IMG/VR virus record: IMGVR_UViG_3300045051_001505 | Coordinates: 1 to 28,027 of that record | From: a virus | Strand: one strand, 5' to 3' | DNA length: 28,027 nt | In this document: positions 1 to 16,372 of the stretch, in pieces | Layout: the number at the start of each line of letters is the position of its first letter | Numbering within the stretch: the stretch's first letter is position 1 | Made by a program: the position numbers and the translations under genes | The notes under the pieces: generated by a model | Told to the model about the DNA's origin: nothing | Seen by the model: only the letters and a program-made list of their open reading frames with translations | Databases searched by the model: none

Positions 1-969
1 ATGGACTCCAGGTTTCCGAGTAGATTCCTGGAATCCAGCCGAGTAAAAAAACTAATGGATAACAACATCAAAAAACCAGAGAATGCTGGGCAAACGCATG
101 TCGTTACCACTCCCACTAATTTTAGAACTTTGCTTGCAACAAACTACATCAAGCAAATCAACAATTTCTTTGGAGATGAAAAGAAAGCGTTGAAGTTCTT
201 AAGTGGGGTAATGGCAGATGTCGGGCGTACTCCGAAACTGATGGAGTGCGCACCGGACACGCTCATCAATAGCTATATGGTGATGGCTCAATTAGAGCTC
301 ATGCCGTCTGGCGTCTCTGGTGAGGCCTATGTGCTTCCATACAATGATAAGAGGCGCGGAATGATCGCGCAGTTTCAGCTTGGCTACCAGGGGTTAGTCA
401 CGCTGTTTTACCGCGCAGGTGTCCGCTCTATTGTTGCAGAAATTGTCTATGAAAATGACGATTTTAATGTGACGAACGGAGTTATCACCCACAAACCCGA
501 TTATTTCAGCGATAACCGTGGCGCGGCCAAAGGTGCATATGTGATCGTTGAATTGCAGGCAGGAGGAAAGGTTAGCAAGGTGATGAGCAAAAAGCAGATC
601 CTTGAAATCGGTCAAAAATTCTCAAAGACATTCAATTCTGATTTTACGCCTTGGAATGAAAAGAACGATCCTGATTTGTGGATGTGGAAAAAGACAGCGC
701 TTAAGCAGGTAGGCAAATTGGTACCAAAAAACGAAACCATCTTTAAGGCGATTGCCGAAGATAACAAAGACAGCGTTATCGGTGATCGCCTTGTAGGCGC
801 ACTAGAGTCGGGTGATGACCTAAAGATGGGTAGCTTGCTAAAAAAAGGGAATGAAAACACCAAGCAAACCAAAAACAAAAAGAACGCGCCGGATAGTGAA
901 AGTGCGCCCGAATCTAAAAATGCCGAGGGCAATTCTTCGGCAGATAACGGCGAACCCGTCATCGAATAA
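1..969 (+). CDS. recT: RecT-family single-strand annealing protein
   Basis: This is a RecT-type recombinase, which anneals complementary single strands or invades duplexes during phage recombination and replication. About residues 35-260 carry the family pattern: a MAQLELMPSGVSGEAY segment (RecT proteins have L-x-L-x-P-x-G-x-x-G-x-A-Y here), then LPYNDK and AQFQLGYQGLVTLFYRAG. The C-terminal 60 residues are a charged low-complexity tail rich in K, N, E and S. The window opens exactly on an ATG. A second ATG at 55 (MDNNIKKPEN) looks like the better start, because residues 1-18 do not resemble the family and the upstream sequence is not visible. The 3' end overlaps the next gene, a nuclease-translocase, by 50-119 bases. 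That pairing fits the usual exonuclease plus annealase module. The family call is strong; the exact start is uncertain. Confidence 0.93.
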   Translation: MDSRFPSRFLESSRVKKLMDNNIKKPENAGQTHVVTTPTNFRTLLATNYIKQINNFFGDEKKALKFLSGVMADVGRTPKLMECAPDTLINSYMVMAQLELMPSGVSGEAYVLPYNDKRRGMIAQFQLGYQGLVTLFYRAGVRSIVAEIVYENDDFNVTNGVITHKPDYFSDNRGAAKGAYVIVELQAGGKVSKVMSKKQILEIGQKFSKTFNSDFTPWNEKNDPDLWMWKKTALKQVGKLVPKNETIFKAIAEDNKDSVIGDRLVGALESGDDLKMGSLLKKGNENTKQTKNKKNAPDSESAPESKNAEGNSSADNGEPVIE

Positions 970-3010
970 AGAGCGCGATTTCCCGTTGGATCACATATCG
1001 TATTCTGCGATGGTGCGGTTCTCGACGAACCCGATTCTGTTCAAAATCATTGATATCAATCACGACTATTTTGACTCAACGAGAAGCATCACCACGATCA
1101 TCGGGCAGGCATTCCATACAGGTATGGAGGTCTATAACGGAGGTAGTGATACGGTAGTGCCAAACAATGAATCAGAAGCGATTGAGGTGGGGATTAAGGC
1201 GGCGATGGACTACATGGAGAAATACCCGGAGGGATTTCTTAAGTACACAACCACCGTGCCGAATAAGCAAAAAGCCTTCGATCTCTTGGCTTTTGCCTTC
1301 AATTCCTATGTCAAAGAATTCCCCTATCAACCCGACAAATTGGTTTCCTGTGAGGAAAAAATTGTTGAGCTGATAGATGTGGAATGGCGGGGTGAAAAAT
1401 TAACCTTGCCGGTGAAGTTAAAAGGGAAGCTGGATAAAATCGAGCGCGAGGATGGTGAGCTGGTCATTACAGATTATAAAACTTGTTCAGCCTACTCCGA
1501 CCCCGAAAAGATCGATGGAGCGAAGATGTTGCAAGCGGTTGAGTATTACTTCCTTGTTCACGCCAAATATGGCGAGGCCCCGACTAAGATGCGGTATCAG
1601 GAAGTGAAAATGACTCAAAACCGCGATGGCAGCAAGCAGGTGAAAACCTACGAAGTGGTGTATGCGGAAAATGAATCGTTCTTTGATTTCTATTTCCGCT
1701 ACTACGCCGATGTGATACGCGCTCTCAATGGTGAGCAGGTATTCGTTCCGAATGTGCACGCCATCTTTGACAACGAAGTGGCAATCATCGCCTATATCCA
1801 TCACCTAGACATCGCAGAAGAAAAAGCCGAGCTGATGAAAAAGCACAAAGTAGATAATATCACTGATCTACTCAAGCGAGAACTGCACAGCGCGAGCAAT
1901 ATGAACAAACTGCTGAAGGCAATGGAAAAGCAGTTTGTCGAAGCAAAATCAATAAATTATTCAACTATGAGCAACGAAGAAAAAATCAAAACAAAGCTCA
2001 TGGAGCACGGGATGGTGCTGCAATTTGATAGCGTAGTTAATGGGGCCAGTGTTGACCTCTACCGCTTTACGCCTTCGATAGGCATCAAAATGTCCCGTCT
2101 CAAGGGCTATGTGGCCGACATTGAGCAGGTGTTAGGTTCAAGCGGTATCCGAGTGCTGGCACCTATCCCGGATACTTCATTTGTCGGTTTCGAGGTGCCA
2201 AAGAAAGAGAGAAGTTTCCCATCGTTGGCTGATTCAACTGGTGGCTTTGACATTGCCATCGGCGAGACTGTAATGGGCGAGGTGCGACGGTTCGATATTC
2301 GCACCGCACCGCACTTGCTGGTTGCCGGGGCGACTGGTTCTGGCAAATCAGTCTTCTTGAGCTCTCTCATCAGCCAGTTAAGCAAAGTATCGGAGCCGTG
2401 TGAGATCCATCTATTTGACCCGAAGCATGTGGAGCTCGTGATGCACGCCAACGATGCCAATGTGGTAGAGCATGAGACCGATATCATGGAGATCCATGAC
2501 AGCTTGGAGTCTCTAGTTTCGCTGATGAATAAGCGATACAAAGAACTAGCTAAGGCGGGAGTGCGCGGCATCCAAGATTATAAGGGGAATATGCCGTACA
2601 AATTTGTGGTGATTGATGAGTTCGGTGATCTCATTATGCAGAAATATGTTGATGTGAAAGTGGTAAAAACCGGCCATGTGTTTCAGAAGGGAGAACGCGC
2701 CGGCGAGGAAGAGACTAGAACAGTTGAGACGCAGGTATCGAAAGAGATCAGCGATTTCATTCTCTTGCTGGCCCAAAAAGCACGCGCCGCCGGCATTCAC
2801 ATCATCATTGCCACACAGAGGCCATCGGTGGATATCATCACTGGTTCGATTAAGGCAAATTTCCCCACAAAGGTCGCGTTCCGCACAGCCAAGGCGATCG
2901 ATAGCCAGGTGCTAATTGATACCGATGGCGCGGAGAAATTGCTTGGTAAAGGTGACATGCTTTTTGCTTCCGACAGGGGCATGGAGCGCCTTCAAGGCTA
3001 CAAAAATTAG
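851..3010 (+). CDS. RecB/Cas4-type PD-(D/E)XK nuclease fused to an FtsK-type DNA translocase
   Basis: One open frame joins two enzymes. Residues 47-345 read as a RecB-family nuclease: H89 in IIGQAFH, D195 in GKLD, D208-x-K210 in ITDYK, and the Q-x-x-x-Y motif Q228-Y232. Residues 373-719 read as the alpha and beta domains of FtsK/SpoIIIE: APIPDTSFVGFEVP, Walker A GATGSGKS (493-500), Walker B FVVIDEFGDL (585-594), IIATQRPS and GAEKLLGKGDMLF. There is no membrane region and no C-terminal gamma (DNA-recognition) domain; the protein stops right after the motor core. The start at 851 gives a 119-base overlap with recT; ATG 920 is an alternative, since the recognisable fold begins near residue 47. 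I infer a motor-driven end-resection enzyme that feeds RecT, analogous in logic to HerA-NurA or AddAB. The domain calls are firm and the joint function is inference. Confidence 0.9.
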   Translation: MKTPSKPKTKRTRRIVKVRPNLKMPRAILRQITANPSSNKERDFPLDHISYSAMVRFSTNPILFKIIDINHDYFDSTRSITTIIGQAFHTGMEVYNGGSDTVVPNNESEAIEVGIKAAMDYMEKYPEGFLKYTTTVPNKQKAFDLLAFAFNSYVKEFPYQPDKLVSCEEKIVELIDVEWRGEKLTLPVKLKGKLDKIEREDGELVITDYKTCSAYSDPEKIDGAKMLQAVEYYFLVHAKYGEAPTKMRYQEVKMTQNRDGSKQVKTYEVVYAENESFFDFYFRYYADVIRALNGEQVFVPNVHAIFDNEVAIIAYIHHLDIAEEKAELMKKHKVDNITDLLKRELHSASNMNKLLKAMEKQFVEAKSINYSTMSNEEKIKTKLMEHGMVLQFDSVVNGASVDLYRFTPSIGIKMSRLKGYVADIEQVLGSSGIRVLAPIPDTSFVGFEVPKKERSFPSLADSTGGFDIAIGETVMGEVRRFDIRTAPHLLVAGATGSGKSVFLSSLISQLSKVSEPCEIHLFDPKHVELVMHANDANVVEHETDIMEIHDSLESLVSLMNKRYKELAKAGVRGIQDYKGNMPYKFVVIDEFGDLIMQKYVDVKVVKTGHVFQKGERAGEEETRTVETQVSKEISDFILLLAQKARAAGIHIIIATQRPSVDIITGSIKANFPTKVAFRTAKAIDSQVLIDTDGAEKLLGKGDMLFASDRGMERLQGYKN

Positions 3011-4765: not shown

Positions 4766-4871
4766 AGCCGATTAGCTCAGTGGTTTAGAGCGTTTCGCTG
4801 GTCAATGCAGTTTGAAAGTTTTCTGCAACGACTCGGAGAGGCCAGGGGTTCGATTCCTCTATCGACTACCA
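4766..4871 (+). tRNA. tRNA-Thr(GGU)-like gene with a 29-base insert in the anticodon loop
   Basis: The parts of a tRNA can be traced: acceptor AGCCGAT (4766-4772) with ATCGACT (4861-4867), one C-A mismatch; D arm GCTC/GAGC (4775-4791); anticodon stem TTTCG (4793-4797) with CGGAG (4834-4838), two G-U pairs; variable loop 4839-4843; T arm AGGGG-TTCGATT-CCTCT (4844-4860); encoded ACCA. The anticodon loop should be 7 bases but is 36 (4798-4833). It begins CTGGT, which would place U33 and a GGU anticodon. The extra 29 bases can form a hairpin (TGCAG 4806-4810 with CTGCA 4823-4827). It could be an intron-bearing phage tRNA or a decayed gene. It is too short for a group I intron, and I see no clean archaeal bulge-helix-bulge. 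Confidence 0.75.
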
Positions 4872-5901: not shown

Positions 5902-7291
5902 AAGCCGGGACTTCCGAAAGTCTTTGGCCGCTAGTAGTTTCTACTGGTTTTTTCATATTTACTTTGCGCATTATTTAAAATATCCTACAGCGGAATTTCA
6001 AAAAGAAATATGCGATCTTTGCCAGGATGATTCAATACCGTTTGTTGAAATCGTTGGATTTCGTGGCTGTGCCAAGTCTTCGATCATCTCAATGGCCTTC
6101 CCGATCTGGCGGATTATTACCGGAAAATCACACTATCCGATTTTAGGGTCTGATACCTCTGGCCAAGCAAAGCAATTAATTTTTAACCTCAAGGTGGAAC
6201 TGGAAACTAACCGACTTTTAATTTCTGATTGGGGACCGTTCGAAAGTACCGATGAATGGACCGCGACCAACATTGTTTTAACTGGATACGACGCGCGTCT
6301 ACAGGCAAGATCTACCGGCCAGCGAATGCGAGGTTTACGCCATAAAGAGCATCGCCCCGATTTGTTCATCCCGGACGATATTGAGAACCTGGAATCTGTC
6401 CGCACCAAAGAGCAGCGAGACAAAGATGAGCGCTGGCTGTTGGCCGAAGCCTTGCCAGCGCTAGATCCGAAAGCCAAAGTTGTTCTATCTGGCAACTTAC
6501 TTCACTCTGATAGTTTGGTGGTCCGCATTAAACGGCAAATTTTAAACGGAGAACGCCGGGGAGTGATCCGAGAATATCCGATCGTTGATGGAAATAATAT
6601 CTTATGGCCTGGGCGCTTTCCCGATATGGCAGCGATTGATGAATTGAAGCGAACGATGCGCGACCCAAGCGGTAACCCCTTGAAGACCTGGCAGCGCGAA
6701 TATTTACTGCACATAGTGCCAGAAGAAGGGCAGGCGATCACTGAAGAAGATATACACTACTACGAGGAATTGCCGGAAAAAGTAACTTTTGGATTGAGTG
6801 GAACCGGTACCGACTTGGCCATCAGCCAGAAGCAGACTGCTGATTGTACGGCGATGGTATCCGGGAAGATTGCGACGATCGAAGGACATCCACAGATCTA
6901 TATTGGCCGCAACCCGATCAATGCCCACTTAGATCTTTATGGCACGATTCAACAGGCAAAGGGGATCAAGGAAACGATCGGGTGTTACCATCAATTTTTT
7001 GTGGAAGATGTAGCCTATCAAAAAGCAGCCATCGATGAATTCCAGCGCAACTTATTACCGGTTATTCCGATGAGGCCGATAAACGACAAGAGGGCCCGGC
7101 TTAATTCGGTGGCGCCGTATATTAAAAACGGTACGGTCCTATTTCCTCGAATTGGTTGTGAAGATCTGATTGTGCAGTTGCTTGGGTTCGGCATTGAAGC
7201 GCATGACGACATGGTAGATGCCTTGGTCTATCTCATCATGGGACTGGTCAACCAGGGAATGCAAGAAATGAAGATAGTCGGCCTACTATGA
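5864..7291 (+). CDS. terL: Terminase large subunit
   Basis: This 475-residue protein is the packaging motor and nuclease. The ATPase half shows an atypical P-loop, GFRGCAKSS (65-73, K71 and S72), and a Walker B region PDLFIPDDIEN with D170-D171. The nuclease half shows an RNase H-like first acid in LSGTGTDLAIS and the last acids in HDDMVDALVYLIMG near the C-terminus, as in other large terminases. Length is normal. Replacement of the usual GxGKS by GCAKS is the main oddity, though variant P-loops are known in terminases. It overlaps terS by 38 bases and the next gene as ATGA. Confidence 0.93.
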   Translation: MQDLAKIQKRIIESRDFRKSLAASSFYWFFHIYFAHYLKYPTAEFQKEICDLCQDDSIPFVEIVGFRGCAKSSIISMAFPIWRIITGKSHYPILGSDTSGQAKQLIFNLKVELETNRLLISDWGPFESTDEWTATNIVLTGYDARLQARSTGQRMRGLRHKEHRPDLFIPDDIENLESVRTKEQRDKDERWLLAEALPALDPKAKVVLSGNLLHSDSLVVRIKRQILNGERRGVIREYPIVDGNNILWPGRFPDMAAIDELKRTMRDPSGNPLKTWQREYLLHIVPEEGQAITEEDIHYYEELPEKVTFGLSGTGTDLAISQKQTADCTAMVSGKIATIEGHPQIYIGRNPINAHLDLYGTIQQAKGIKETIGCYHQFFVEDVAYQKAAIDEFQRNLLPVIPMRPINDKRARLNSVAPYIKNGTVLFPRIGCEDLIVQLLGFGIEAHDDMVDALVYLIMGLVNQGMQEMKIVGLL

Positions 7292-7506
7292 GCAATAATT
7301 TTAAACAACCAAAAATTAAGATTACGATCGAACTCGAAGAAGAGTGGATCAGGCTCATTCAGGTAGCCGGTAAGATCAAGTATGGCAAGATCGATATTGT
7401 TGTCCAAAACGGCATACCTGTTCGGCTTGATAATGTGATCCAGCAAATTAAATTAGATGATCCGGCCGACTTCAGAGACAAGATGGAATGCGTGCCTCTA
7501 CTTTGA
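7288..7506 (+). CDS. DUF2292-like small protein
   Basis: The 72-residue protein resembles the short DUF2292 pattern: a helix followed by KYGKIDIVVQNGIPVRLDNV, where the family shows YG-x-I-x-V-x-V-Q-x-G-x-P-V. The fold is probably a small alpha/beta unit; no biochemical role is known to me. It overlaps the terL stop as ATGA, so expression should be coupled to terL. It is the last gene before regulatory cassette A, and its TGA is one base before the DnaA-box-like sequence. Confidence 0.7.
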   Translation: MSNNFKQPKIKITIELEEEWIRLIQVAGKIKYGKIDIVVQNGIPVRLDNVIQQIKLDDPADFRDKMECVPLL

Positions 7507-7507
7507 T

Positions 7508-7516
7508 TTATCCACA
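7508..7516 (+). promoter_or_regulatory. DnaA-box-like TTATCCACA (cassette A)
   Basis: This is a perfect match to the bacterial DnaA-box consensus, ending 20 bases before the -35 box of promoter A. The same nonamer at exactly the same distance precedes promoter B (13797-13805). The paired placement suggests an activator site for the phage structural operons. Direct binding by DnaA is not shown. Confidence 0.6.
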
Positions 7517-7536
7517 CATTTGTTGTCCGATTCTGT

Positions 7537-7564
7537 TTGACTGAATATTTGTTAGTGTTAGAAT
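7537..7564 (+). promoter_or_regulatory. Promoter A, TTGACT-16-TAGAAT
   Basis: The -35 box TTGACT (7537-7542) and the -10 box TAGAAT (7559-7564) are separated by 16 bases. A TG at 7556-7557 gives an extended -10. Predicted transcription starts near 7571, 35 bases before the cassette A hairpin. A TATAAT at 7565 would need a 22-base spacer and is less likely. This is the only promoter-like sequence directly before the portal operon. Confidence 0.7.
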
Positions 7565-7605
7565 TATAATAACTTTAATATTTTAAGCTCGAGTGGAATA
7601 ACCAT

Positions 7606-7652
7606 AGGGCTGTAGCACAACCTCATTTCGGGGCGTCGCTACAGCCCTTTTT
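7606..7652 (+). terminator. Structured hairpin plus U-run before portal gene (cassette A)
   Basis: AGGGCTGTAGC (7606-7616) pairs perfectly with GCTACAGCCCT (7638-7648) and is followed by a T-run to 7652, the form of an intrinsic terminator. The top holds a second small hairpin, CCTC-ATTTC-GGGG (7621-7633), inside an internal loop. The run ends 6 bases before the portal ATG and lies downstream of promoter A, so it may act as an attenuator or as the 3' end of a short RNA of about 80 bases. Cassette B has the same design. Confidence 0.75.
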
Positions 7653-7658
7653 CGTATC

Positions 7659-9992
7659 ATGAATAAATTTATAGAAAATATTTTTGCAAAGATCGGTTTT
7701 ATTCCCAAGGAAAAAGGATACAGTGGCGCGTCTTCAGGTCTCGGTTCTATCGGGGCTATGCTTGGGTTGAGTGACAAGAAAGAAATTGTCCAAGGTGCTT
7801 TTAAAAATATTCGGGGATGGGTTGGTGCTGCTATTCGTGTCAAAGCCGAAGCGGTTGCGCAAATCGAGTTTCGCTTGTTCAGGATGAAAAAGGATGGCAC
7901 GAGCGAAGAGCTGTTTGATCATGATATTTTGACCTTGCTCAATGGCGTTAATCCCTATCAGACCGGCTACCAGCTGAAATACTTAACAGCCGCTCATTTA
8001 GACCTTGCAGGAGGGGCATATTGGCTCCTAGATGGCGTTAAAAGTGATACAGACAAGCCAACCGCTATCTATCCACTTAATCCGAAGTTTATCGAGATAG
8101 AAATCGAGGATCAATTACGCGGATTGGTAAAGGGGTATAAATACAAAGTCACTAATTCCGAGGGGAAAGAATTGCAGCCGTACGAAGTTTTGCACATCCC
8201 TTATCCCGATCCGGATGGTTCGCCTTATGGCCGTAGCACCTACGAAGTAGCCAGGGAGTGGATCGAGGCAGATGACTTTTCTACCAAGTGCAATCTGAAT
8301 TATTTCAAAAACGGCGCACGATTGTCTGGAACGATTGAATCAGACCAGCCATTGTCGCCGGAGCAGATGCAATCATTGCGTGAATCGTTTACGGATCTCT
8401 ATCAGGGCGCAAAGAATTTTTACAATGTCGCTATTCTACCGAATGGTGCAAAGTACAATGGCATGGGTGACAGTCCGAAAGATATGGACTTCGCCAATTT
8501 GCAGCAAGTAAGCCGGGATAAAATTCTCTCGGCCTTTCGCGTTCCTAAAACGGTCTTGGGTGTAGCCGAATCGGAAACAAACCGCGCAACGGCCGAAACC
8601 GCTAACTATGTTTTCTCTAGTCGCACCATAAAGCCGATGATGCAGTTGATCGTTACCTATCTCAATGAGTTTTTAGTCCCGCGCTTTGGTGATGATCTTT
8701 ATCTCGATTTTGCTGATCCAACCCCAGAAGATCGTTTGCAGCAAGTTGAAGAAATGAAAGCAGCCTTGGGTGGTGCGCCGGCTATTTCAGTCAACGAGGC
8801 TCGCGAAAATTATTTTGCAAAGGGCCCGATCGAAAACGGCGATGCTGTTATGACCAGTTTCAGCTTCCAGCCATTGGGTGAGCCAACAAAGAAAAAAGAA
8901 TACCGCGTTGAGGCAAAAGGCAAAGGACCGACACGAACCAAATTTGCTATCAATCAGGATGCCCGAAAGAAAATGTCGGCCGAGATCGTGGAAAAAGTAG
9001 GCGAGGCGATCAAGAGTTCCAACAATGTTAAATTTAAAGTGGCCTTAGGAGGCCGAAAAGCCCTCGCAGAGCTCACTGATGATCAGTTTGAGGTGATTCA
9101 TAAGGCTAAGATCAGTCGTGTCGCTCCATACGAGAAATCAGTCAAAGGAAAGGTCAAAGATTTTAACGCTAAACAGAAAGAAAAAGTGCTTGCTAATCTT
9201 TCTCAGATAGTGAAATCTGTTAGCCGAAAGAAAAAAGATATAAGCGACGGTGATCTATTTGATGCCGCTGCTGAATCAAATATCTTGTCGTCCGACATGA
9301 TGCCGATATACATCGATTTGTTTGGTACCGAAGGCAAAGAGGCGGCACGCTTAATCGGAATCGACGACATTAATATCATCAACGAACAGACAAAGAAGCT
9401 GCTCGAGAAAGCCGCGCAGTTGATGTCTGATTCCTATAACGAGTCAACCCTAACCTTGCTTAAAGATCGTCTGAATAAGGGCATAAATGAGGGCATGAGC
9501 ATTGATGAGTTGACCGCCGAGGTCTCAAGCGTTTATGAGTTTAGCGATTCTGTACGCGCCGAGACTGTCGCCAGGACGGAAGTGTTTAGGGTTGCCAATT
9601 ACGCAACTCGAGAGACATGGAAGGAATCTGGCGTTGTTACGACTTTGCGATTCTATACCGCCGAAGATGAACGAGTTTGCGACATTTGCGGTCCGATGAA
9701 TGGCAAGGTGATGGGGATTGATGAATCGATCGGAGAGCCGGGGGAACCGCTTATCGGAGCCAACGGAGAGCAAGTTATGGTCAATGGATCACCAATAAAA
9801 ATGTCTGACTATGGTGATGGCAGCGTACCGCAGGACCTCCATGTTAATTGCCGGTGCGAAGTGCGCCCAGACCAACTGGCAACTGAGGACGCAATCAATT
9901 CTAGCGAAACAAAAAGCGACAAGGATGATCCAGCCAACAATGAAGAGATCGACGCAGACTTACAAGATATAGAAAAAATGATCAATGAATAA
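7659..9992 (+). CDS. Portal protein fused to a MuF-type minor head protein
   Basis: Residues 1-420 read as an HK97-type portal, the dodecameric ring through which DNA enters the capsid (WVGAAIRVKAEAVAQ, LDLAGGAYWLLDG, PYPDPDGSPYGRS, VPKTVLGVAESETNRATAE). A Lys-rich helical linker follows. Residues 610-740 read as a Mu gpF / SPP1 gp7 domain: ETVARTEVFRVANYATRETW, C674-x2-C677 in VCDICGPMNGK, and H728-V-N-C731-R-C733 in LHVNCRCEV. Such fusions occur in some siphophages. The ATG is only 6 bases after a terminator-like U-run and has no Shine-Dalgarno sequence. The stop overlaps the next gene by 8 bases. The protein should sit at the capsid vertex, with the MuF part probably inside the capsid. Confidence 0.93.
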   Translation: MNKFIENIFAKIGFIPKEKGYSGASSGLGSIGAMLGLSDKKEIVQGAFKNIRGWVGAAIRVKAEAVAQIEFRLFRMKKDGTSEELFDHDILTLLNGVNPYQTGYQLKYLTAAHLDLAGGAYWLLDGVKSDTDKPTAIYPLNPKFIEIEIEDQLRGLVKGYKYKVTNSEGKELQPYEVLHIPYPDPDGSPYGRSTYEVAREWIEADDFSTKCNLNYFKNGARLSGTIESDQPLSPEQMQSLRESFTDLYQGAKNFYNVAILPNGAKYNGMGDSPKDMDFANLQQVSRDKILSAFRVPKTVLGVAESETNRATAETANYVFSSRTIKPMMQLIVTYLNEFLVPRFGDDLYLDFADPTPEDRLQQVEEMKAALGGAPAISVNEARENYFAKGPIENGDAVMTSFSFQPLGEPTKKKEYRVEAKGKGPTRTKFAINQDARKKMSAEIVEKVGEAIKSSNNVKFKVALGGRKALAELTDDQFEVIHKAKISRVAPYEKSVKGKVKDFNAKQKEKVLANLSQIVKSVSRKKKDISDGDLFDAAAESNILSSDMMPIYIDLFGTEGKEAARLIGIDDINIINEQTKKLLEKAAQLMSDSYNESTLTLLKDRLNKGINEGMSIDELTAEVSSVYEFSDSVRAETVARTEVFRVANYATRETWKESGVVTTLRFYTAEDERVCDICGPMNGKVMGIDESIGEPGEPLIGANGEQVMVNGSPIKMSDYGDGSVPQDLHVNCRCEVRPDQLATEDAINSSETKSDKDDPANNEEIDADLQDIEKMINE

Positions 9993-13796: not shown

Positions 13797-13805
13797 TTAT
13801 CCACA
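13797..13805 (+). promoter_or_regulatory. DnaA-box-like TTATCCACA (cassette B)
   Basis: This nonamer is identical to the one at 7508-7516 and again ends exactly 20 bases before a -35 box. It lies 4 bases after the holin stop codon. The repeat in position and sequence makes chance less likely than for a single match. Confidence 0.6.
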
Positions 13806-13825
13806 ATAAGAGATCGTTTGGGGAT

Positions 13826-13853
13826 TTGACAGTCGAAACTTGTGTAGTAAAAT
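13826..13853 (+). promoter_or_regulatory. Promoter B, TTGACA-16-TAAAAT
   Basis: TTGACA (13826-13831) is a perfect -35 box; TAAAAT (13848-13853) matches the -10 consensus at five of six bases. The spacer is 16 bases, as in promoter A. Predicted start is near 13860, about 37 bases before the cassette B hairpin. It would drive the protease, capsid and tail genes if the hairpin is read through. Confidence 0.75.
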
Positions 13854-13896
13854 TAAAAGTAATTAAATAAATTTTCGGCCTAAATTGAACAACAAT

Positions 13897-13943
13897 AGGG
13901 CCTTGAGCAAAACCTTTCACGAGGGGCGCTCAAGGCCCTTTTT
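13897..13943 (+). terminator. Structured hairpin plus U-run before protease gene (cassette B)
   Basis: AGGGCCTTGAGC (13897-13908) pairs perfectly with GCTCAAGGCCCT (13928-13939) and runs into TTTTT ending at 13943. The apical part AAAACCTTTCACGAGGGGC matches cassette A in plan: A-rich 5' side, a small CCT/AGG-type hairpin, and GGGGC on the 3' side. The flank GAA-x-AAC-x-ATAGGGC is also shared. The protease ATG follows 33 bases after the run. It could be an attenuator or the end of a short RNA. Confidence 0.75.
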
Positions 13944-13975: not shown

Positions 13976-15181
13976 ATGCCTCCAGAGCAATACAAAAAGT
14001 TATCCGAAGCGATCAAGAGCGAGCTGGCCAGCCAACTCAGCAATGACGACTTCAAAAATTTCATTACTAAAACCAAGGACGCTAGCGGAGAAGACACCGG
14101 AACATTCGAGGTCATTATCTCCACTGCCGATTGCGATCGCCAGGGAGAGATCATCGATCAGAATGGCTGGGATCTCACAAACTATAAAAACAACCCTGTC
14201 GTGCTATGGGGTCATGACTATTGGAGTTTGCCGATTGGCATTTGTGATTCTATCGAGATGGTCAACGGCAAATTGGTAGCCAAAGGCCGCTTTGCTCCGG
14301 CTGAGGCAAATCCGTTTGCGCAGCAGGTACGCAAACTCTACGATCTGAAAATCGTGCGCACCACTTCGGTCGGTTTCATTCCGTCCGAGCAAACCGGCAA
14401 CACTATCACCCGCGCCGAATTGCTGGAATTCTCATTTGTTCCGGTGCCGGCCAATCCTTACGCCTTGTCTCTCCGACAGGTTAAGGAATTGGGCATTAAC
14501 ACCGAGATGCTTTCAATGAAAGGTATCGCCATTAAGGAGGTTGAGGAAGAGCCGAAAGTTGAAGGCGACGAACCTAAGGAAGATGAGACTGTTGAAAAGC
14601 CGGAAGAGGTGGAGCAAAAAGGCGCCATTGCCGACGAATTGAACGCGGATGAGATCATTGAGCAAAAGTGGGATTACTGTGATGAAGTCTATGAGATCAT
14701 AAGCGCTTTTTATAGCGTCTATCTCGATGAGGCTACGCCGGTTGACCAATTCTCTACGCTTTTGACCGAGGCCGCTAATTTACTTTTGCAACTAGCCCAA
14801 AATCCGGAAGCCGAATCGACAGAGACGGAAGGAAAGATCGCCAAAGCCAAGGGTCTGGGTGATCTTGTGAAGATGTTGGAAGCACGAAACCAGAAAGCCG
14901 GGCGCGTCCTATCTGAAAAGAACCGGACGACCATTAAAGATACCATCGATAGTTTAGAAACTACAACCGCAGCCTTGCAGGAGCTATACAACGCTACCGA
15001 ACAGGGTGACGGGACCGAGGAAGGCTCGAGCGATGCGAGCGGGTCAAAGCAAAGGTCGATTCGATCAGGGTCTGATAAAAAAGCATTCAGCAATTGGATG
15101 CTTTCGAAGCAGGTCTTGGTTTCGATTAATAACGCAACAAGCGAGGCACTTCGTAAATTTAACGAAGGATCTCGCAAATAA
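13976..15181 (+). CDS. HK97-type prohead protease with C-terminal scaffold-like region
   Basis: Residues 40-170 form the S78-type prohead protease that matures the capsid: H80 in VLWGHDYWSLPIG, S131 in VRTTSVGFIP, and the ELLEFSFVPVPANPYA segment with E148/E151. Residues 190-230 are acidic and disordered (EEEPKVEGDEPKEDE), and 230-345 are predicted helices (EIIEQKWDYCDEVYEIISAF and others), followed by a Ser/Gly linker and a basic C-terminus. The long helical extension is about the right kind of region for a scaffold, so protease and scaffold may be one protein. The gene follows cassette B and precedes the major capsid gene by 3 bases. Confidence 0.9.
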   Translation: MPPEQYKKLSEAIKSELASQLSNDDFKNFITKTKDASGEDTGTFEVIISTADCDRQGEIIDQNGWDLTNYKNNPVVLWGHDYWSLPIGICDSIEMVNGKLVAKGRFAPAEANPFAQQVRKLYDLKIVRTTSVGFIPSEQTGNTITRAELLEFSFVPVPANPYALSLRQVKELGINTEMLSMKGIAIKEVEEEPKVEGDEPKEDETVEKPEEVEQKGAIADELNADEIIEQKWDYCDEVYEIISAFYSVYLDEATPVDQFSTLLTEAANLLLQLAQNPEAESTETEGKIAKAKGLGDLVKMLEARNQKAGRVLSEKNRTTIKDTIDSLETTTAALQELYNATEQGDGTEEGSSDASGSKQRSIRSGSDKKAFSNWMLSKQVLVSINNATSEALRKFNEGSRK

Positions 15182-15184
15182 ACT

Positions 15185-16372
15185 ATGGATCCAGAACTTT
15201 TTAAGCAACTTGATGAGACGATCAAGAGTGCCGTAGATTCTGTCATGGAACAGCATTTGAAGGCTGCTGTCGGCCCGATGGTCGCTTCGGAAACGAAAGC
15301 GATTGTCGAGAAGATGCGCCTTGAAAAAGCTCTCTATGGTAAGGATGTATCGGGACTCTCTGACGATCAAAAAGTTGTCTTCGCGAAAACCGTTAAGGCT
15401 GTTGCCTTCGGTAAAACTAAGTCTGATGAAGCGATCATTAGTGAACAGGACGAGCGTGGCGGTTATTTGATCTCCACCGAAGTTGCCAATGCCATTTTGC
15501 GCATTGCGTACTCGGTTGGTTTGGTCATTAGCCAAGCTACCCCTTGGCCTATGGGCACTGATGAGAAGGACATCCCGGCTTACAGCGGAGCTGCTCTTGA
15601 AGGCGAATTCTTAGGTGTTGATGCAGCTGGCTCGGCCACTGGTATTACCTTTGATCAGGTTAGATTGGTAGTCAAGAAATGGCAGTTGGCGTTTGCTATT
15701 GGCAACGATGTGTTGGCCGATGCGAATGTTGACCTTGCTAACTGGCTGCTTGCACTTGGCGCCGAAGCTCTCGCTAACAGGGTAGACAAGGAAGCCTTAG
15801 TTGGTACCGGCAAGCCTTTCGTGGGCGTGATGAATCATCCTAAAGTTGCGACTTACACCCTGGCAGCTACCAAGACCGGATTCGATAAATTCGATCCGAT
15901 CGCAGATGCGGCCAATGTGGAAGCCCAAATTGAGGAATCAGTCTTAGACGGTTCGTGCTATGTAATGCACCGCACCGTTTGGGCTAAGATTCGCGCTGCC
16001 AAGGATACGGCAGGCAATTTCATTTTGCCTTTTGCTGGTGTCATGCAATCTCCGGCTATGGCTGCTTTCAGCGGTCAAATCGGAGGTCGCAAGCCTGTGG
16101 GGGAACTCAACGGCTACCCGGTCTTCACTTGCCGACATATGCCAGCCTTTTCTGCTAGCGCCGTTAGCACGCCATTTATGATCTTTGGTAACTTGAAAGC
16201 TATTGCTTTCGGTGACAAGGGTGAAATGACTGTTGACGAATATCGCTCAGGCAGTTTCGGCGGCAAAGAAATCGCTTTGGCCGACCAGCGCGCTCTCGTC
16301 TATCGCAGACGATTTGCCACCACTGTCGGTCTTCCTGGCGCTTTCGTGATCGTCAAGACAGCTGCGTCTTAA
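15185..16372 (+). CDS. Major capsid protein, HK97 fold
   Basis: The 395-residue protein fits the HK97 major capsid family. Residues 1-95 are helical (FKQLDETIKSAVDSVMEQHL, EKMRLEKAL) and resemble a delta domain removed by the protease. The family core begins at DERGGYLISTEVANAIL and includes TPWPMGTDEKDIPAY, VRLVVKKWQLAFAIGNDVLAD, NGYPVFTCRHMP and the late IALADQRALVYRRRFATTVGLPGAFVIVKT segment. It immediately follows the protease, as expected. The start at 15185 has no Shine-Dalgarno sequence, and the stop is followed by a strong hairpin. The call is firm; the cleavage site is not determined. Confidence 0.92.
   Translation: MDPELFKQLDETIKSAVDSVMEQHLKAAVGPMVASETKAIVEKMRLEKALYGKDVSGLSDDQKVVFAKTVKAVAFGKTKSDEAIISEQDERGGYLISTEVANAILRIAYSVGLVISQATPWPMGTDEKDIPAYSGAALEGEFLGVDAAGSATGITFDQVRLVVKKWQLAFAIGNDVLADANVDLANWLLALGAEALANRVDKEALVGTGKPFVGVMNHPKVATYTLAATKTGFDKFDPIADAANVEAQIEESVLDGSCYVMHRTVWAKIRAAKDTAGNFILPFAGVMQSPAMAAFSGQIGGRKPVGELNGYPVFTCRHMPAFSASAVSTPFMIFGNLKAIAFGDKGEMTVDEYRSGSFGGKEIALADQRALVYRRRFATTVGLPGAFVIVKTAAS

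Follow-up and report, generated by a model that had tools for sequence, protein, structure and literature searches.

Each of the two promoter–hairpin cassettes found in a viral genome record probably acts, in our judgement, as an attenuator of transcription within the leader of a virion operon, with a small DUF2292/XtrA-like protein as the best candidate for the factor aiding read-through; no transcript data are available. The DNA analyzed (the window) comprises 28,027 bases, positions 1–28,027 of the IMG/VR virus record IMGVR_UViG_3300045051_001505. An attenuator needing antitermination had been suggested before from the letters alone (the sequence-only reading), and this suggestion is supported by further copies with covariation, by a mutually exclusive antiterminator and by the placement before structural operons.

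Cassette architecture and gene context

The genes of the window run from RecT, a PD-(D/E)XK/FtsK fusion, RusA, the small and large terminase and a 72-aa DUF2292 protein to cassette A, the portal and further genes, followed by an integrase, a holin, cassette B, a head protease, the major head protein and tail genes. The window holds two cassettes, and the integrase–holin block stands between portal and protease. The portal/head-morphogenesis fusion gene is inferred to be under the control of cassette A, and the capsid operon, with the head maturation protease as its first gene, under that of cassette B.

The sequence-only reading had placed the cassettes at 7508–7652 and 13797–13943, each consisting of a 9-mer, a promoter, a hairpin and a U-tract with near-identical spacing and each preceding a structural operon. 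Places and parts were confirmed (Table 1). Both cassettes have 20 bases between TTATCCACA and the −35 box, TTGAC, a 16-base promoter spacer and a −10 box, and PHROGs profiles identified a portal behind A and a protease and capsid behind B. Transcription is inferred to start at about 7571 (promoter A) and about 13860 (promoter B).

Table 1. Positions of cassette parts and adjoining genes in the window.
Feature	Position	Strand	Basis or detail
Small gene, DUF2292-like (72 aa), lying after the terminase and ahead of cassette A; candidate antiterminator protein	7288..7506	+	Pfam PF10055, E 2.8e-5
DnaA-box-like TTATCCACA upstream of promoter A	7508..7516	+	enriched; set distance from −10 in relatives
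Sigma-70-type promoter A, TTGACT-16-TAGAAT	7537..7564	+	TTGACT 7537-7542, TAGAAT 7559-7564
Antiterminator hairpin A, AGCTC-GA-GTGG-AATAA-CCAT-A-GGGCT	7586..7611	+	MFE shape, covariation
Terminator hairpin A and U-tract	7606..7652	+	hairpin 7606-7648; 7606-7611 common to antiterminator
Portal/head-morphogenesis fusion gene	7659..9992	+	PHROGs portal, E 2.8e-100
DnaA-box-like TTATCCACA upstream of promoter B	13797..13805	+	enriched in window
Sigma-70-type promoter B, TTGACA-16-TAAAAT	13826..13853	+	TTGACA 13826-13831, TAAAAT 13848-13853
Antiterminator hairpin B, GGCCT-AA-ATTG-AACAA-CAAT-A-GGGCC	13877..13902	+	MFE shape, covariation
Terminator hairpin B and U-tract	13897..13943	+	hairpin 13897-13939
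Head maturation protease, capsid operon gene 1	13976..15181	+	PHROGs head maturation protease, E 3.5e-22
Major head protein, capsid operon gene 2	15185..16372	+	PHROGs, E 3.2e-35

The 9-mer TTATCCACA occurs twice in the window (0.13 expected), and none of 100 shuffles gave two. Upstream of structural-operon promoters, this exact DnaA-box consensus was counted 25 times on the coding strand against 3.3 expected, mostly 27–33 or 40–48 bases before the −10 box; it also stands at such promoters in loci L004, L006–L009, L046, L070, L177, L178, L181 and L199. Since it is found too in Patescibacteria-type phages without a hairpin cassette, these data suggest that the late promoters are linked to DnaA or a protein of similar specificity. 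A separate arrangement was seen between early genes, where pairs of DnaA boxes on the opposite strand lie 147 bases apart (L046, 3862–4009; same place in L004, L006, L007 and L008), perhaps forming a replication origin or an operator.

Each window hairpin is directly followed by TTTTTC. Their folding energies are −26.2 kcal/mol in A (z −6.6) and −27.9 kcal/mol in B (z −6.0), with no shuffle as stable, and in a two-strand scan they were the only GC-rich terminator-like hairpins preceding a gene on the plus strand (the scan used energy and stem limits; earlier loose thresholds gave noise). From the claim that termination falls close to the start codon, the position of the hairpin before the ATG stands, the precise distance being 10 bases in A and 36 bases in B. 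In contrast, the “CCT/GGGGC internal loop” described earlier could not be upheld, as this part forms a short inner helix, which the relatives do not conserve.

Three further observations concern the window in general. A PD-(D/E)XK nuclease domain and an FtsK/SpoIIIE motor domain are joined in a single ORF (851–3010). Shine-Dalgarno sequences are nearly absent from the major genes, whose starts are preceded by A/T-rich stretches. At 4766–4868, a stretch of 103 bases matches an Rfam tRNA with 44 bits, yet ARAGORN detects none there; the tRNA may hold an insert.

Copies of the element and the alternative pairing

A related portal (45–54% identity) was found in 13 viral contigs. In all 13, the portal start is immediately preceded by a promoter and by a GC-rich hairpin of differing sequence with a U-tract. 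Since the assembled-genome relatives are Nomurabacteria and Taylorbacteria, the hosts are Patescibacteria. Most relatives have a single cassette, before the portal; in L011, further head genes follow the portal without interruption, and of the three cassettes in L076, one precedes the portal, one a small structural gene and one the protease. A terminase-based scan gave one distant locus only, and the element has no Rfam family match at gathering score. Overall, over 30 copies have the antiterminator shape, with strong compensatory changes between them, and copies are observed before portal, protease, tail-sheath and baseplate operons. A lack of further copies in related phages, which would have refuted the sequence-only reading, was therefore not encountered, and the stem covariation that it had taken as a sign of a selected RNA structure is now seen in related and unrelated phages.

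In an alignment of 16 copies, two helices were found without prompting, P1 (4 bp) and the terminator stem P2 (13–14 bp); compensatory changes are present at 14 of the 18 pairs, and the score was reached by none of 500 shuffles. When the copies were compared with one another, the sequence RGYCY just 5′ of P1 was seen to pair with the GGGCY that forms the base of the terminator stem (in the window AGCUC/GGGCU in A and GGCCU/GGGCC in B). In the resulting antiterminator hairpin, a 2x1 internal loop (GA or AA opposite A) separates a lower stem of 5 bp from an upper stem of 4 bp, which is closed by an A-rich loop. This hairpin cannot coexist with the terminator as GGGCY is common to both. The “GAA-x-AAC” box noticed earlier is the upper arm and loop of this second hairpin, which had been missed.

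The antiterminator is the MFE structure, with the same shape, in almost all of 26 copies. Between 94.2 and 95.1% of its alignment cells are paired, and the covariation score is 0.53–0.68, compared with 0.20–0.24 for shuffled and approx. 0.1 for slid alignments. In the lower stem, 97.6% of the cells are paired, a value never reached in 20,000 permutations of distinct stems. Its outer pair varies jointly between A-U, G-C and C-G, the second between G-C, C-G, U-G and U-A, and the third between C-G, U-G, U-A, A-U and G-C. In several phages, GGAC disrupts the terminator pair (A.C) yet preserves the antiterminator pair (U-A). A single antiterminator is only moderately unusual on its own (shuffle P 0.016 for each window copy) and, therefore, the case rests on the comparison of copies. 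When folding of the growing transcript was computed, the antiterminator was the MFE structure from 7611 to 7645 in A and from 13902 to 13935 in B; once the 3′ arm of the terminator is made, the terminator is favored by approx. 8 kcal/mol in the window and by 2–11 kcal/mol in other copies. As the terminator is the more stable state, we infer that a stabilizing factor is needed for the antiterminator to prevail.

DNA-pattern scans of viral contigs were used to find copies beyond the window clade. The element is present in phages whose other genes do not match those of the window, namely L227, L247, L249, G297, L306 and L254 (model E-values 4e-11 for L227, 1e-7 for L247, 1e-11 for L306 and 3e-8 for L254; all model E-values are rough due to short calibration). 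The pattern matches L246, L248 and L251, in which P1 is not formed, were set aside as likely chance. G297 has three cassettes with a nearly identical P1, before head protease, tail sheath and baseplate genes (identities read from the sequence, not by profile). The L254 copy stands before the gene of a protein with relationship to the ArpU regulators known from Paenibacillus phages; no cassette was found when ArpU-bearing Paenibacillus phages were searched with the element model. A host role for the element was considered and rejected, as a search of 286 genomes from the class of the relatives gave weak matches only; two of these were inspected and neither proved to be a cassette, one being a gene-end terminator and the other a terminator-like hairpin without cassette features.

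Among streptococcal satellite phages, 54 were found to have an XtrA-like gene; seven of these were inspected, and each has the element immediately behind this gene, apparently within an operon. Because the seven were chosen for having an XtrA-like gene, they test whether the element accompanies the gene, not whether the gene accompanies the element. Model E-values are 1e-8, 1e-8, 6e-8 and 5e-6 in four satellites and 0.001 to 0.02 in the other three. The lower stem of Javan734 reads AUACU/GGUAU; Javan211 is the weakest model match and was missed by a strict shape search. Three satellite rows in alignment A9 were entered by hand.

The small upstream gene as a candidate for the factor

The window protein reaches 24 bits against DUF2292 (PF10055; Pfam cut-off 22), and several relatives fall below the cut-off. 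A DUF2292-like gene is observed between terminase and cassette in every window-clade cassette locus with a readable interval (L003 and L070 are among the loci listed in this survey). The cassette-free loci tested have no such gene, with the exception of L167, where, at approx. 2290–2350, the gene and a promoter occur with a bare U-tract hairpin at the inferred transcript start and no antiterminator. Within the clade, this association could be due to shared descent. In L227 and L247, a DUF2292-like gene directly upstream of the cassette is the sole match to a window gene, with Pfam scores below the cut-off. The L306 cassette has PBSX XtrA as its immediate upstream neighbor (PF17356, E 1.5e-9, 37.9 bits vs. 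a cut-off of 29.7). The window protein itself does not match PF17356. A profile comparison links DUF2292 with XtrA (hhalign P 1.1e-5), the aligned part being the C-terminal 34 columns.

DUF2292 was found in none of 93 host genomes, among annotated phages no protein related to the DUF2292 proteins of the window or L247 turned up, and we found no paper assigning DUF2292 or XtrA a function or a link to antitermination. Models of DUF2292 are of low confidence and a fold search matched no known fold; therefore, RNA binding is not shown. With this reservation, we lean slightly toward the DUF2292/XtrA-like protein being the antiterminator factor. The wider proposal, that DUF2292/XtrA is a new antiterminator family acting on the hairpin to switch on virion operons in Patescibacteria phages, other phages, streptococcal satellites and probably the B. 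subtilis PBSX prophage (where the function of xtrA is unknown), appears evenly balanced to us. It is possible, though we doubt it, that the same two-state attenuator responds to another phage or host protein or to a small ligand which stabilizes the antiterminator. Such a signal would fit the cassettes of G297, L249 and L254, for which no DUF2292/XtrA gene was found (in G297, or adjoining the L249 and L254 copies), as well as the unknown fold of the protein, but would leave unexplained why the gene stands upstream in all readable loci of the clade, in three phages with otherwise unrelated genes and in the seven satellites, even if the latter were selected for it.

Proposed switch, remaining alternatives and known systems

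According to the attenuator model, RNA polymerase would start at the promoter and make a leader of approx. 85 bases, in which the antiterminator hairpin would form first, as GGGCY emerges. The emerging 3′ arm of the GC-rich hairpin would then take GGGCY, and the terminator, formed beside the U-tract, would halt transcription ahead of the first codon. At the late stage of infection, an RNA-binding factor of the phage is supposed to hold the antiterminator hairpin; the terminator stem would then stay short and apart from the U-tract, allowing read-through into portal, protease, capsid, sheath or baseplate genes. As cassettes precede several operons, one factor could thus switch on several of them. 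If this factor is the DUF2292/XtrA protein, it would come from the preceding operon, bind the hairpin and release the late operons; in the satellites, with gene and target apparently in one operon, a timed early-to-late switch may result. The analysis shows the two structures with their covariation and energetics, the placement kept across copies and the association with the gene; termination and read-through in vivo are inferences, as are the need for a factor and its identity. Ribosome-mediated attenuation was rejected, since no ATG, and consequently no leader peptide, was seen in the window leaders between inferred start and hairpins.

Alternatively, the cassette might yield an independent short RNA of approx. 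85 bases with its own function, like lambda 6S RNA, read-through being incidental. The sequence-only reading had allowed for such an RNA of about 80 bases, which the proximity of promoter and terminator predicts and which cannot be excluded because the terminated transcript would be just that. Nevertheless, we regard it as improbable: the conserved alternative pairing with the terminator base would be unneeded, the satellite element sits inside an operon right behind the XtrA-like gene, and loop and stem sequences are not conserved, unlike an sRNA seed. Just as little speaks for a 5′ RNA element for RNase III processing, mRNA stabilization or put-like, factor-independent downstream antitermination. 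Some stems are indeed long and nearly perfect (L004), and the adjacent hairpin pair resembles the HK022 put RNA; yet a GC-rich stem followed by 5–7 U is the mark of an intrinsic terminator, with which the lower antiterminator stem is mutually exclusive. Ordinary terminators of upstream genes combined with a chance promoter are hardly credible, although some copies follow the terminase operon, since the hairpins lie 69–160 bases past the upstream stop codon with the promoter in between, second and third copies have unrelated upstream genes (holin, fiber) while the downstream structural gene class is kept, and P1 and antiterminator covary.

As far as we found, late-gene timing in Patescibacteria phages is unknown, and an RNA switch that is portable and accompanied by a small gene provides a directly testable answer. 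If true, the proposed switch and factor would explain what two functionally uncharacterized protein families do, link Patescibacteria phages to Gram-positive phages and satellites, and offer a compact new antitermination part.

In phage lambda, the late promoter pR′ is followed shortly downstream by the terminator tR′, which must be overcome for late genes, and the default product is a short RNA; the Q protein acts from DNA and a paused polymerase. The cassettes equally consist of a late promoter closely followed by an intrinsic terminator before late genes, but differ in their conserved RNA antiterminator, which covaries with the terminator. No Q-like protein was noticed in the window, the early region lying outside it. 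HK022 put RNA and lambda nut boxB are, like the cassette hairpins, short RNA hairpins near a phage promoter; their targets are terminators lying further downstream, and they are not known to exclude a terminator, whereas the cassette antiterminator excludes its own terminator. PBSX XtrA and DUF2292 resemble each other as small proteins encoded directly upstream of the element.

ANTAR-dependent antitermination requires two hexaloop hairpins with conserved A1 and G4 (PMC8934654). The cassettes share with these systems (EutV, AmiR, NasR) the mutually exclusive antiterminator and terminator hairpins, but not the dual-hexaloop motif, having a single hairpin with mostly 5-base loops; an ANTAR domain (PF03861) search gave no match, nor did control genomes. 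In protein-dependent antitermination of the RAT/CAT type, the terminator stem is made shorter by the antiterminator and displaced from the U-tract (PMC3369936), which is also the geometry of the cassettes. A regulator of this type was not detected, CAT_RBD (PF03123) being found in 0 of 11 phage and host records with positive controls. The cassettes resemble the RAT leaders of LicT, SacY and BglG in having an antiterminator hairpin, interrupted by an asymmetric internal loop, that extends into the 5′ base of an intrinsic terminator and is mutually exclusive with it; they differ in the hairpin itself (5 bp, 2x1 loop, 4 bp and an A-rich pentaloop) and in preceding phage structural operons rather than sugar operons.
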